From: Synechococcaceae cyanobacterium
Lineage (GTDB): Bacteria; Cyanobacteriota; Cyanobacteriia; PCC-6307; Cyanobiaceae
NCBI GenBank assembly: GCA_947378425.1
Contig: CANCJV010000003.1
Coordinates: 1-64,000 of the forward strand
Direction: 5' to 3'
DNA length: 64,000 bases
A program made the translations under genes and the position numbers. Below the pieces are notes generated by a model, which was not told where the DNA came from, did no database searches, and saw only the letters and a list, made by a program, of their open reading frames with translations. Positions within the stretch are counted from its first letter, which is position 1. Every line of letters begins with the position of its first letter. Shown in pieces: positions 15,658 to 57,823 of this stretch.

Positions 15658-18600
15658 GTGGCAATCACCAGCACCCCCAGCGACCTTCTCACAGCACTGC
15701 TGCCCGAATGGCAACTGTTGCTTCAGCAGTGGTCGTCCAGTGGTCGTCTGACTGCTGCTGCCCAGGAGGCACTGCTTCTCAATGGGAAACCGCAGGCACT
15801 GACAGACCTCGTGACCCAGTGGACAGCAGGAGACTTTTCAGGGATACCTCCGATCGTTCTGCTCTCTGGAGCGGAGATGAATGGGGCGATGGGTGCTTAT
15901 GCCATCAGTACAGGGAGTATTTACCTGAATGTCGACTGGTTGGCGACGGCAACGAAGGATCAGGTGTTTGCAGTTCTTACTGAAGAACTGGGTCACTATC
16001 TCGATTCCGCACTCAATCAAAAAGATACAGCAGGTGATGAAGGTGAATTTTTTGCTCGCTTGCTTGGTTGGTCAACGCTGAGTGATGCAGAGAAAGCAGC
16101 ATTGCGGTCTCAGATTGATGCTGGAGTTGTGCTGAGCGGCGGCATTCAAGTCACAGTTGAGAATGCCGTTGCTCCCTTGATTAGGGGCAATAGTTTTTAT
16201 CAGCGTGTGCTTGGACCAACTTGGACGAGTGCTGAGGCGAACTCCGTGACAATAGGAGGGCACTTAGCGACAGTTAATAGCGCCTCCGAAAATCAATGGT
16301 TGTTTAACAACTCATTATTAGGTTGGATTGGGTATACAGACCAAGCAGTTGAAGGGCAGTGGCGTTGGATCAGTGGAGAGGTATCTACATACTCAAACTG
16401 GTCTCCCAATAATCCCGATAACGGTGGGGGTATTGAAAACTATGCATACATTGATGGGGGCGCTGGCATTTGGAATGACATACCGAACGACTACTGGAAC
16501 TATATTCCAGGGACTAGTCCAACAATGATGGGTATTTCAGAAATCCCCCTTCAACTCACCATAACCCGCCAAGGAGAAGTCAAAGAAGGTGCTGGTCTCT
16601 TCACTACATCCATAAACCTCTTTGCAGGGAGCACGACCTCGGGCAACCTTGCTGATGGTGCTCAGGTCTGGTGGAATGTCACAGGAATCACTGCCGACGA
16701 TTTAACGGCAGGTGCTCTGAGTGGCACAGGGACGATTCAGAACGGCAAACTTGATATTCAGCATTCTCTCAAAGTTGATCCTGATTCAGGAGAATCTTTT
16801 GAAGTCTCTGTGTTCTCTGATGCAGGGTTGACACAGCAGATTGGAACTACAAGTTCAGTATTGGTCCAGGAAGCGAAGTCTGTTATTAGGGGAAATAGTT
16901 TTTATCAAGTTGTTGCTGGACCAACGTGGGATGATGCTGAATCAAGTGCCATCGACAAAGGAGGACATCTTGTTACTCTCAACGATACGGCGGAAGATTC
17001 ATACATTTTCAACTCATTCATCAAAGCATCGGTTGCGCCCACTGATTACTCGGATCACTTGTGGATAGGTCTTCGGGATGTTGTGACAGAGGGTGCATAC
17101 ACTTGGAGCAGTGGGGAGAGCGTTTCGTATTTGAACATTGATCCCATTAACTACGTTCCAAATCTTCAGTTTATAGAAGTTAAGCAGGATTGGGTTTTGT
17201 ACTGGGGACAAAGTGGTACTTGGGATACACAAGAAGTTTTGGGATACCCTCTGACTGGAAGAAATGGTATCGCTGAAATCCCCCTTCAACTCTCCATAAC
17301 CCGCCAAGGAGAAGTCAAAGAAGGTGCTGGACTCTTCACCACATCCATCAATCTTTCTGCAGGCACTGAAGCATCAGGCAACCTTGCAGATGGTTCTCAG
17401 GTCTGGTGGAATGTCACAGGCATCACTGCAGATGATTTGGCATCAGGTGCTTTGAGTGGCACTGGGACGATTCAGAACGGCAAACTTGATATTCAGCATT
17501 CTTTAAAAGTTGATCCTGATTCTGGGGAATCGTTTGATGTCTTTGTGTTCTCTGATGCAGGGTTGACACAGCAGATTGGAACTACAAGTTCAGTTTTGGT
17601 CCAGGAAGCGAAGTCTGTGATTAGAGCAAATAGTCTTTATACAGTTGACAATGGTCCTTCTTGGACGGAGGCAGAGGCAAATGCTGTGGTACTTGGCGGG
17701 CACCTGGTATCGGTACAAGATGCAGAAGAGAACCTCTTTATCGGGTCGATAATTCTCGCTACCGGAACAGAAAGTGTTACGTACTGGATAGGTCTGACAG
17801 ATTCAGCAGTTGAGGGCGAATGGAAATGGTCATCGGGCGAAAGTCTCACATATACAAACTGGAGTCCTGGCGAACCAAATGCTTTTGACCAAGTAGCAGG
17901 ACCAGAGGACTATGCCGCTCTTTATGCCACCACCACCCCTTCTTGGTTTGACATTTCTAACGGAAATGAATATTTTCGGGGGAGAGGATTTCAGAGTATT
18001 GGAATCGCTGAGATTCCCCTACAACTCTCCATAACCCGCCAAGGAGAAGTCAAAGAAGGTGCTGGACTCTTCACCACATCCATCAATCTTTCTGCAGGCA
18101 CTGAAGCATCAGGCAACCTTGCAGATGGTTCTCAGGTCTGGTGGAGTGTCACAGGCATCACAGCAGATGATCTGGTCACAGGTGCCCTGAGTGGCACAGG
18201 GACGATTCAGAACGGCAAACTTGATATTCAGCATTCTCTCAAAGTTGATCCTGATTCAGGAGAATCTTTTGAAGTCTCTGTGTTCTCTGATGCAGGGTTG
18301 ACACAGCAGATTGGATTGAAATCAGTAGCAGCAATTATTGATGGCAACAATGCGCCAACCGATATTGCCTCCTCCTCTATAAACTTTAACGAGAACATTG
18401 CTGCCAACTCTCCAGTAGCGACATTCACAACCACTGATCCCGATGTCGGCAATACCTTCACTTACTCATTGGTAGCAGGCATTGGATCAACCGATAACAG
18501 TGCTTTCACTATCAGCGGCAACCAACTGCTGATTAATACCTCTCCCAACTTTGAGGCAAAATCTTCCTACTCAGTTCGTCTCCGTTCTGCCGATCAAGGT

Positions 18601-20232
18601 GGTCTCTTTACAGAGAAGGTATTCACTTATGTAGTTAATGACCTCAACGAGGCACCAACCGATATTGCCTCTTCCTCCAGCAACTTTAACGAGAACATCG
18701 CTGCCAACTCTCCAGTAGCAACGTTCACGACCACTGATCCCGATGTTGGCAATACCTTCACCTATTCCCTAGTAACAGGGACTGGATCGACCGACAATAG
18801 TGCCTTCACAATCAGCGGCAATCAACTGCTGATTTCTGCTTCACCCAATTTCGAAGCGAAATCCTCGTATTCTATTCGTCTCCGTTCTGCCGATCAGGGC
18901 GCTCTATTTACAGAAAAGGTGTTCACCTATGGAGTCAACAATCTCAATGAAGCGCCAACCGATATCACCTCTTCCTCTATAAACTTTAACGAAAACATTG
19001 CTGCCAACTCTCCAGTCGCAACATTTACAACCACTGATCCTGATGCCACCAATACCTTCACTTACTCCCTGGTTACGGGCATCGGTTCAACCGACAATAG
19101 TTCCTTCACAATCAGCGGCAATCAACTGCTGATTAGTGCCTCTCCAAACTTTGAGGCAAAATCTTCTTATTCAATTCGTCTCCGTTCTGCGGATCAAGGT
19201 GCTCTCTTTACGGAGAAGGTATTCACCTATGGAGTCAACAACCTCCAAGAAGGTCCGGCACAGTTCAACCTGAAGGGTGATGGAACCTGCAATCTCAACC
19301 AAACACTCACCTGCTTGCTGGCACAACCAGACCCTGATGGACTCAAGGCAGCAACCACATATGCCTACAAATGGGAGTCCTCCACTACTGGTTCATCTGC
19401 CTGGACTGCTTTGACTGGTACAGCATCGACTTATGCTCTCCAATCCACTGATACCAACAAATATGTCAGATGCACAGTCTCATACACCGATGCCTTAAAT
19501 CTTGCGACATCGGTTGTCACTTCTAACATTCATATTGTTGGTGGTACTACTGGATCAAATACACTGGTTGGCGGCACTGGCGTTGACATAGAAGATGGTG
19601 GTGCAGGCAATGATGTCCTGCAATCTGGTGCCGGGGATGACTTTGTTGGGGGTGGAATCGGGGACGATACTTTCACCGCAACCACTGGTGATGGAAATGA
19701 TTTCTGTGATGGTGGCGCTGGCATCGATACAGTCAACTTCAACCTGTCTACCAGTTCAGTTACTGTTGATTTGCTGACTGGTACGGCAGTAGGTGTTAGC
19801 AACGGTACTGATAAGTTGGTCAATATTGAAAATATTGTTGGTTCGACTCTGAATGACTCACTGATTGGCAATAATTCTGTTAATACCTTCAGGGGCAATG
19901 GTGGTGCCGACACCTTCTCATTCCTGAATAAGCAAACCGCTGGCGCATCAACCTCGGATCATATTACGGACTTCAGTGCTGATGACAAGATTCTTGTCTC
20001 TAAGTCGGCATTTGGAATTACGGCATCTGTTGTCACTTTTGCCACAGCATCTACTCCCGCATCGCTTACAGCAGGTCTTGCCACAGCATCCCTGTTTGTC
20101 TATGACAGCACCAATGGCAACCTCTATTGGAATCAAAACGGAACTGCAGCAGGTGCTGGGACGGGTGGTGTCTTTGCAGTTCTGGACAACAGATTTGGAC
20201 TCACGGCATCTAATATTAATTTAGTTGCTTAA
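15658..20232 (+). CDS. Giant C-type-lectin / cadherin / RTX surface protein
   Basis: A 1524-residue protein from a GTG start with AGAAGG before it. Residues 1-165 are an N-terminal domain with TEELGHYLDSALN, seen in large cyanobacterial RTX proteins. Three C-type-lectin-like domains begin near 175, 410 and 655 (each with GGHL, WIG or WIGL and WSPG or similar). Each is followed by a nearly identical module of about 110 residues. Three cadherin-like repeats of exactly 100 residues start near 899, 999 and 1099 (NFNENIAANSPVATF). An Ig-like Cys-containing domain, Gly/Asp RTX calcium-binding repeats near 1317 and a terminal DTFSF-type region follow. No N-terminal signal peptide is seen, so export by a type I secretion system through the C-terminus is likely. 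An adhesive or sugar-binding surface role is inferred; no exporter genes are nearby. Confidence 0.85.
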   Translation: MAITSTPSDLLTALLPEWQLLLQQWSSSGRLTAAAQEALLLNGKPQALTDLVTQWTAGDFSGIPPIVLLSGAEMNGAMGAYAISTGSIYLNVDWLATATKDQVFAVLTEELGHYLDSALNQKDTAGDEGEFFARLLGWSTLSDAEKAALRSQIDAGVVLSGGIQVTVENAVAPLIRGNSFYQRVLGPTWTSAEANSVTIGGHLATVNSASENQWLFNNSLLGWIGYTDQAVEGQWRWISGEVSTYSNWSPNNPDNGGGIENYAYIDGGAGIWNDIPNDYWNYIPGTSPTMMGISEIPLQLTITRQGEVKEGAGLFTTSINLFAGSTTSGNLADGAQVWWNVTGITADDLTAGALSGTGTIQNGKLDIQHSLKVDPDSGESFEVSVFSDAGLTQQIGTTSSVLVQEAKSVIRGNSFYQVVAGPTWDDAESSAIDKGGHLVTLNDTAEDSYIFNSFIKASVAPTDYSDHLWIGLRDVVTEGAYTWSSGESVSYLNIDPINYVPNLQFIEVKQDWVLYWGQSGTWDTQEVLGYPLTGRNGIAEIPLQLSITRQGEVKEGAGLFTTSINLSAGTEASGNLADGSQVWWNVTGITADDLASGALSGTGTIQNGKLDIQHSLKVDPDSGESFDVFVFSDAGLTQQIGTTSSVLVQEAKSVIRANSLYTVDNGPSWTEAEANAVVLGGHLVSVQDAEENLFIGSIILATGTESVTYWIGLTDSAVEGEWKWSSGESLTYTNWSPGEPNAFDQVAGPEDYAALYATTTPSWFDISNGNEYFRGRGFQSIGIAEIPLQLSITRQGEVKEGAGLFTTSINLSAGTEASGNLADGSQVWWSVTGITADDLVTGALSGTGTIQNGKLDIQHSLKVDPDSGESFEVSVFSDAGLTQQIGLKSVAAIIDGNNAPTDIASSSINFNENIAANSPVATFTTTDPDVGNTFTYSLVAGIGSTDNSAFTISGNQLLINTSPNFEAKSSYSVRLRSADQGGLFTEKVFTYVVNDLNEAPTDIASSSSNFNENIAANSPVATFTTTDPDVGNTFTYSLVTGTGSTDNSAFTISGNQLLISASPNFEAKSSYSIRLRSADQGALFTEKVFTYGVNNLNEAPTDITSSSINFNENIAANSPVATFTTTDPDATNTFTYSLVTGIGSTDNSSFTISGNQLLISASPNFEAKSSYSIRLRSADQGALFTEKVFTYGVNNLQEGPAQFNLKGDGTCNLNQTLTCLLAQPDPDGLKAATTYAYKWESSTTGSSAWTALTGTASTYALQSTDTNKYVRCTVSYTDALNLATSVVTSNIHIVGGTTGSNTLVGGTGVDIEDGGAGNDVLQSGAGDDFVGGGIGDDTFTATTGDGNDFCDGGAGIDTVNFNLSTSSVTVDLLTGTAVGVSNGTDKLVNIENIVGSTLNDSLIGNNSVNTFRGNGGADTFSFLNKQTAGASTSDHITDFSADDKILVSKSAFGITASVVTFATASTPASLTAGLATASLFVYDSTNGNLYWNQNGTAAGAGTGGVFAVLDNRFGLTASNINLVA
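16538..18316 (+). repeat. Three near-identical internal gene modules
   Basis: Segments of about 310-340 bases starting near 16538, 17272 and 18007 are almost the same at DNA level, each encoding ITRQGEVKEGAGLFTTSI onward to VFSDAGLTQQIG. The high DNA identity implies recent duplication or gene conversion and could allow domain-number variation by recombination. Confidence 0.8.
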
Positions 20233-26019: not shown

Positions 26020-26032
26020 AACGGAGAGGGTG
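26020..26032. repeat. Attachment-site core in the tRNA-Ser 3' end (att)
   Basis: The 13-mer AACGGAGAGGGTG overlaps the last bases of tRNA-Ser and is repeated at 546-558. Integration here preserves the tRNA gene. Confidence 0.6.
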
Positions 26033-26106
26033 GGATTCGAACCCACGGAAGGTTTCCCTTCAAACGATTTCGAGTCGTTCGCTTTCGACCACTCAGCCAC
26101 CTCTCC
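26022..26106 (-). tRNA. tRNA-Ser (anticodon CGA)
   Basis: An 85-base class II tRNA with the acceptor stem GGAGAGG/CCTCTCC and discriminator G. It has a D arm, anticodon loop CTCGAAA with anticodon CGA, a long variable arm with GGAAACC pairing, and the T arm GTGGGTTCGAATCCCAC. The long variable arm and G73 identify serine. CCA is not encoded. Its 3' end is the island's attachment site. Confidence 0.97.
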
Positions 26107-56675: not shown

Positions 56676-56905
56676 CGTGGCGGACTCGTCGCGTGGATCA
56701 CATTTTCATCCTGACGCACGGTTGAGCCGCCATAAGTTCAGGCGCGCAACAAATCAGCGGGCTGCCAGTCGCTGCGATCCTGCCGGAGGGATCCTGCTGC
56801 CCCCAACGCCTGGGAGCCGTCAGCCCGTGGCAGGCCACACAGACGACCTGTCCAACCCGCCCAGCCTGTCCAGAGCGACGGCCTGATCGCCCTGCCTGAC
56901 CTGCC

Positions 56906-57823
56906 TTGACCGCCATGTCCTCTGATCTCCCACCTGGTGCTGTTGGTCCAGAGCCCCCTCCTCTGGTGCCCTTGGGCACCCCTGCGGCCCTGGCTGAACT
57001 GGCGGCGGCCTGCGGCCGGTGCCACCGCTGCGATCTGGCCGCATCCCGCCAGCAGGTGGTCGTGGGCCGCGGCAACCCGGACGCCCGGCTGCTGTTGATC
57101 GGCGAGGCCCCCGGCGCCGAAGAGGACGCCAGCGGCCAGCCCTTCGTGGGCCGGGCCGGAAAACTGCTGGAGCAGCTACTGGCTGAGGCTGGCCTGGACA
57201 GCGATCGCGACCTGTACATCGCCAACGTGATCAAGTGCCGCCCACCGGGCAATCGCAAACCCAGTCGCGCTGAGATCGCCGCCTGCAGGCCCTGGCTGGC
57301 GCAGCAGCTCTGTCTGCAGCGGCCCCAGCTGATCGGGCTCCTGGGCGCCACGGCCCTTGAGGCGCTTCTGGGCCTCAAGGGCGGCATCACCAAGCTGCGG
57401 GGCCAGTGGCTGGAGCTGGTGGAGGGTTCGCTTCTGCCCACCCCGCAGCCTCTCAACTCAGCCCAGGCCACGCAACAAGAACCAACAGAATCTTCAGCAA
57501 CTTGCTCCATGACGCAGCCAACATATTCGTTAACAACGCAGCCAAAAACTCACACGACACCCGAGCGACAAGACCAGCCCCGATCCATGCATCTTCAAGG
57601 CTATCTGCCGAACCAGCGATCGAACAATCTTCCGTCGATCAACCGACAGACGATCAAGGCGCAGCCCATCAACCTGCAGGCCATCGCCTTGATGCCCCTG
57701 CTGCATCCTTCTTATCTGTTGCGCAATCCCTCCAACCAGGAAGGGAGCCCGAAATGGCACACCCTGCAGGACCTGAGGCTGCTGCGCCGCCGTGTGGATG
57801 AGCTGACGACCGGGCGGGAGTGA
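56906..57823 (+). CDS. Family-4 uracil-DNA glycosylase with inserted segment
   Basis: Family-4 UDGs excise uracil from DNA and carry a 4Fe-4S cluster. Cluster Cys residues are visible in CGRCHRCDL, IKCRPPGNR and ACRPWL. Motif A is LLLIGEAPGAEEDASGQPFVGRAG and motif B is MPLLHPSYLLRNP. Between LVEGS and ALMPLLHPSYL there is an extra stretch of about 85 residues, rich in Ser, Thr, Gln and Asn, absent from usual members and lower in GC. The total of 305 residues is therefore long. The insertion lies near the active site and may be a disordered loop. A start at 56915 is also possible. Confidence 0.9.
   Translation: MTAMSSDLPPGAVGPEPPPLVPLGTPAALAELAAACGRCHRCDLAASRQQVVVGRGNPDARLLLIGEAPGAEEDASGQPFVGRAGKLLEQLLAEAGLDSDRDLYIANVIKCRPPGNRKPSRAEIAACRPWLAQQLCLQRPQLIGLLGATALEALLGLKGGITKLRGQWLELVEGSLLPTPQPLNSAQATQQEPTESSATCSMTQPTYSLTTQPKTHTTPERQDQPRSMHLQGYLPNQRSNNLPSINRQTIKAQPINLQAIALMPLLHPSYLLRNPSNQEGSPKWHTLQDLRLLRRRVDELTTGRE

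Follow-up and report, generated by a model that had tools for sequence, protein, structure and literature searches.

A low-complexity hairpin loop of variable length in a cyanobacterial family-4 uracil-DNA glycosylase, probably grown by in-frame tandem duplication

The 64,000-nucleotide stretch analysed here (hereafter the window) carries a uracil-DNA glycosylase (UDG) gene with a long low-complexity segment inside its catalytic domain, which raises the question of what this segment is, how it arose and whether the enzyme works with it. The gene lies on the forward strand at 56,915–57,823 and comprises 302 codons from an ATG picked by eye (56,915) plus a stop codon (57,821–57,823). Its frame is open from 56,900 to 57,820, so that the segment is in frame, as the original prediction had stated. 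The product was assigned to family 4 by TIGR00758 (171.4 bits; cut-off 125.3), together with PF03167 and the PDB match 1ui0. Cysteines C34, C37, C106 and C122, which we take to be the four residues holding the Fe-S cluster, are all present and at least 90% conserved in a 58-row alignment. Residues G61, E62, P64, G65, H262 and P263, belonging to what we take to be the family-4 motifs GExPG and HP(S/A), are invariant across the same rows, which were picked by script on the GE.PG, PFVG and HP motifs and are biased towards invariance. The HPS motif follows the segment within MPLLHPSY (57,692–57,715, forward strand). The Pfam match reaches as far as residue 191 of 305 and that of TIGR00758 as far as residue 170, with the HPS motif beyond both, which means that domain scans overlook the C-terminal part of this UDG gene.

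The segment comprises 94 codons between RGQW, ending at 57,409, and MPLLHPSY, and it is read as an expanded hairpin loop at 57,410–57,691 on the forward strand from the sequence, the relatives and the pLDDT profile of a structural model. The stretch rich in serine, threonine, glutamine and asparagine that had been predicted before MPLLHPSY (57,428–57,684) falls within these limits and is confirmed. These four residues make up 43% of the loop against 16% of the UDG core, and the predicted drop in GC is likewise present (0.56 versus 0.70), as is a drop in G on the coding strand (0.20 versus 0.35). A 464-kb genome sample (about 13% of the total, with about 6 kb counted twice through overlaps; 346 open reading frames picked by a crude script) contained five frames that reached at least 42% S/T/N/Q in their best 60-residue window, the UDG among them; the other four were one secretin, one Ig-like domain protein and two without a Pfam match. 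A genome-wide habit of such inserts was not supported by this sample and its crude frame picking. The 94-residue stretch is, therefore, real and unusual.

The structural model places the segment outside the enzyme core. In the AlphaFold model, 184 of 300 residues have a pLDDT of at least 90 and the UDG core is confident, while the block means of the loop are 36–53, and stretches below 50 are confined to model residues 177–246 (57,449–57,658). The strand at residues 57–61 leads into GEAPG and that at 256–260 into HPS, and the predicted unstructured loop joins at the start of the latter, in the turn leading into this last strand. The family-4 UDG of Thermus thermophilus (1ui0/1ui1) has the same core fold and motifs (1ui0: Z 30.7, rmsd 1.3, 188 residues, 48% identity), whereas the turn between the aligned stretches has 2 residues in 1ui0 (145–146) and 88 in the window enzyme (171–258). 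In the UDG fold the start of the last strand lies on the side away from DNA. The loop should, by this topology, lie on the opposite side of the sheet from the active site, which would account for its tolerance. UdgX carries an extra loop as well, located elsewhere than the one described here. UdgX of Mycobacterium smegmatis (PDB 6ail and others) belongs to the same superfamily and is a strong structural match; identity of the window enzyme with UdgX was rejected on TIGR03914 (143.1 bits against a cut-off of 189.95).

PF03167 was matched only once in the genome of the window, which is 98.6% complete, by the UDG gene itself; in the control of this search, 13 of 14 genomes gave a match. Since it provides the only such match, the enzyme presumably works with the loop in place. 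All 11 other loop-bearing genomes have a UDG gene, and nine of them lack a further match, while G014 gave a weak second match under the cut-off (genomes are designated by G and loci by L numbers).

The length of the turn was read in 37 of the 42 genus genomes searched; outside this tally stand G005, G016 and G023, which gave no match to the query of loop and C-terminal part, and G060 and G061, which were matched. In 25 of the 37 genomes the turn has 8 or 13 residues, and in the other 12 it is a long loop, with 32 residues in G032 and G021, 42 in G064, 52 in G018 and G036, 68 in G007, G024 and G020, 72 in G001, 92 in G028, 94 in the window and 113 in G014. A segment shared and conserved in all orthologues, against which the original prediction was to be checked, was thus not found among these genomes. 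In a wider alignment (the window plus 57 of 80 loci, the turn being parsed in 61 of the 80), 54 of 58 rows have a turn of 8–13 residues, and the four long rows are the window (94) and L031, L032 and L033 (92, 68 and 42), which carry the loops of G028, G007 and G064, respectively. A class-wide search matched 271 of 291 genomes, and loop lengths were taken from the genus genomes instead. In addition, G063 (L132) has a 13-residue turn, yet the N-terminal end of its open frame is occupied by an A/S/P-rich low-complexity stretch of about 60–70 residues. In G001 a second copy of the UDG gene, with a loop of 42 residues, was seen (L138, contig C67) and is outside every tally; this genome is listed as 83% complete and 3% contaminated, and the copy may come from another species.

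A tree of the UDG core without the loop was built from 39 rows, 37 of them from 36 genus genomes (G025 entered twice) and two others, with L033 and L035 removed because they duplicate G064 and G026, and L041 left out. The 12 loop-bearing genomes lie on one side of a branch whose support of 59/88 is not firm, and that side splits into three firm groups (2, 4 and 6 members), which contain loop-bearing rows exclusively. A single origin for all long loops is possible from this topology. The loops of different groups are dissimilar by eye, alignments having been made within each group only, and a few residues are common to all six long loops. Of the five relatives nearest to the window, four are separated from it by a core dS of 0.37–0.42, which, together with the 12 loop-bearing genomes, indicates that a loop at this site is older than this strain. 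The idea of a recent in-frame insertion is therefore supported only in part, although single repeat units may be young.

The long loops retain traces of how they were built. A fixed-lag self-match scan, run on each loop with 12 nt of upstream and 30 nt of downstream sequence and compared with 300 codon shuffles per loop, revealed degenerate tandem repeats beyond the shuffles in 9 of the 12 loops, that of the window included (per-loop P ≤ 0.023, uncorrected for the 12 tests). The best lags of these nine were 12, 15, 24/48 or 30 bp, all multiples of 3. No repeat above the shuffles was found in the three shortest loops (G064, P 0.17; G032, 0.83; G021, 0.71), so the first step of loop birth is not visible. 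The window loop gave its best self-match at lag 15 with a score of 19, against a shuffle mean of 9.5 (sd 1.3) and with none of 300 shuffles as high, while the best score in the UDG core was 10. This signal corresponds to four degenerate 15-bp direct units on the forward strand at 57,638–57,697 (INRQT, IKAQP, INLQA and IALMP). The last unit is the conserved strand preceding HPSY, so that the strand's own codons were apparently copied, a direction of copying that we infer. Two degenerate 24-bp units sharing an exact 10-mer (SMTQPTYS and LTTQPKTH; 57,506–57,553, forward strand) can also be read in the sequence, although this pair alone does not exceed the shuffles (lag 24, score 10).

Among the relatives, TRF was run on two loci and detected a 12-bp array in G014 (3.2–5.2 copies) and a 30-bp array in G001 (3.6 copies); on the window, at score 30, it returned no array within the loop, the units there being too diverged for TRF. 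The loops of 42, 52 and 72 residues fall in one firm group and differ by multiples of ten residues, a series in line with 30-bp units (unit counts of the 42- and 52-residue loops were read by eye). Repeat number differs between relatives, as expected of a loop grown from tandem repeats. Growth by tandem duplication is, on these sequence comparisons, well supported for the long loops. Separately, G001 has an 18-bp tandem array (4.2 copies, 96% matches; L007:1419–1504) where its UDG match ends on the 3' side.

Selection on the protein appears weak in the loop and strong in the core. With a Nei–Gojobori script, dN/dS was 0.13–0.26 in the core and 0.22–0.93 in the loop across 11 non-independent pairs with small codon counts. 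The loop exceeded the core in all 11 pairs, and its interval included 1 in 10 of them; the G036/G064 pair was core-like in its loop (0.22, interval 0.06–0.60). In the trio G007, G024 and G020, variable sites were spread evenly over the first, second and third codon positions of the loop (8, 5 and 7 in 68 codons), while those of the core fell mostly on third positions (20, 17 and 52 in 178 codons). Third positions were less variable in the loop than in the core (7/68 versus 52/178; Fisher P = 0.0015), and first and second positions were alike in both (P = 0.87). The low third-position variation of the trio loop is not predicted by plain neutrality.

One member of this trio looks like a mosaic in its UDG gene. 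The N-terminal core of G020 (L006) is closest to that of G028 (L002), at 0.92, while its C-terminal core is closest to that of G024 (L005), at 0.97 versus 0.81 over the first 201 nt of the core. The sequence upstream of the gene, with 96.5% identity to G028 and 88.1% to G024, agrees with such a mosaic. The point of recombination probably falls within the loop or close to it. The mosaic structure of G020 would account for the low third-position variation in part at most.

Taken together, we consider it probable that the window encodes a working family-4 UDG with a disordered hairpin loop that has been lengthened by in-frame tandem duplications and is little selected, the core being kept. In part of the genus, the hairpin turn leading into the final sheet strand would have grown from 8–13 to as many as 113 residues through repeated in-frame duplication of units of 12, 15, 24 and 30 bp. 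The duplication step was probably replication slippage or unequal recombination, with slippage as the presumed mutational step, and the duplicated units would then have been altered by point mutation, leaving a disordered and little-selected loop in a retained enzyme core. The tolerated loop of the original prediction is supported by the unstructured model, the hairpin-turn position and the intact core under purifying selection. The loop would be tolerated rather than needed, a lineage-specific and probably tolerated feature of an otherwise ordinary enzyme, and a function for it is not likely.

The main competitor of growth by duplication with little selection would be a sequence-tolerant disordered tether kept for its length, which might aid DNA retention and search or partner binding. 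Bacteria tend to delete useless DNA. A disordered tail that aids processivity is known from the glycosylase UNG2. In PMC9266487, a disordered tail is described as helping MPG to search for lesions, and another glycosylase is described as gaining processivity from one. The exclusively loop-bearing composition of the three firm tree groups and the basic charge of some loops (net +3 or +4 in G001, G018, G036 and G028) are consistent with a tether, as is the presence of a few residues common to all six long loops. However, net charge over all loops ranges from −3 to +4, the loops of the three groups (aligned within groups only) are unlike each other, dN/dS is near 1 in several pairs, and 25 of the 37 genus genomes do without a loop, so that such a tether is regarded as unlikely. 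Equally doubtful is the wider proposal that a tether in the middle of the cells' only UDG serves also as a recombination switch point shuffling enzyme halves between species.

An origin by in-frame insertion of foreign sequence fares worse. Rickettsia palindromic elements reside inside genes, and the lower GC and the shift in composition at the loop edges might be expected of a comparable mobile or palindromic element. The loop, however, has a single full DNA match in its genome (E up to 10), the next best being 19–28 bp long at E 0.44; its sole inverted repeat is one 10-nt pair 78 nt apart; neither a protein search of plasmids nor a DNA search of phages gave a match; and the relatives display graded, repeat-built lengths. 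An inserted element is hence very improbable. A mini-intein or its relic, the other suggestion of the original prediction, would be in frame and within a conserved domain, as the loop is. Inteins begin with Cys or Ser at the left edge, end in His-Asn followed by Cys, Ser or Thr at the right, and are longer than 32–52 residues. The loop instead begins with Leu and ends in ...IAL|M, without a Cys/Ser start or a His-Asn end; Pfam and NCBIfam scans return UDG families only; and the relatives include loops of 32–52 residues within a graded series built from tandem repeats. This suggestion was, therefore, discarded as the least probable of all.

A hidden overlapping gene was also tried and rejected, none of the five other frames being open in all four loops inspected: of the plus frames, frame 1 is open only in G007 and G020 and frame 2 only in G000; of the minus frames, frame 0 is open in the trio and not in G000, and frames 1 and 2 are open in none.

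Prokaryotic low-complexity regions are said to come from slippage and to be tied to recombination hotspots in PMC6821194, part of whose text names no family-4 UDG, and the region in the window differs in lying inside a catalytic domain and varying in length between species. The tails of eukaryotic DNA glycosylases are likewise unstructured and non-catalytic, and are mostly terminal according to part of PMC9266487, unlike the internal hairpin loop of this bacterial family-4 enzyme. No description of this loop was found among the literature matches listed, judged by titles and abstract openings. The 12 long loops and their short counterparts offer a natural series of 8–113 residues for one internal loop of one enzyme in one bacterial genus, in which most long forms still show their duplication units, and provide a clean test bed for the birth of low-complexity loops in bacterial enzymes and their effect on the working of a glycosylase.

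An RNA element was rejected as well, the sole Rfam match above the gathering threshold in the window being a tRNA at 26,022–26,106. Elsewhere in the window, an open reading frame of 1524 amino acids (15,658–20,232) contains three 300-bp tandem units with 83% matches at 18,355–19,252; by eye, these repeats are cadherin- or Ig-like and are accompanied by lectin-like and RTX-like segments, and the product is probably a surface or secreted protein.
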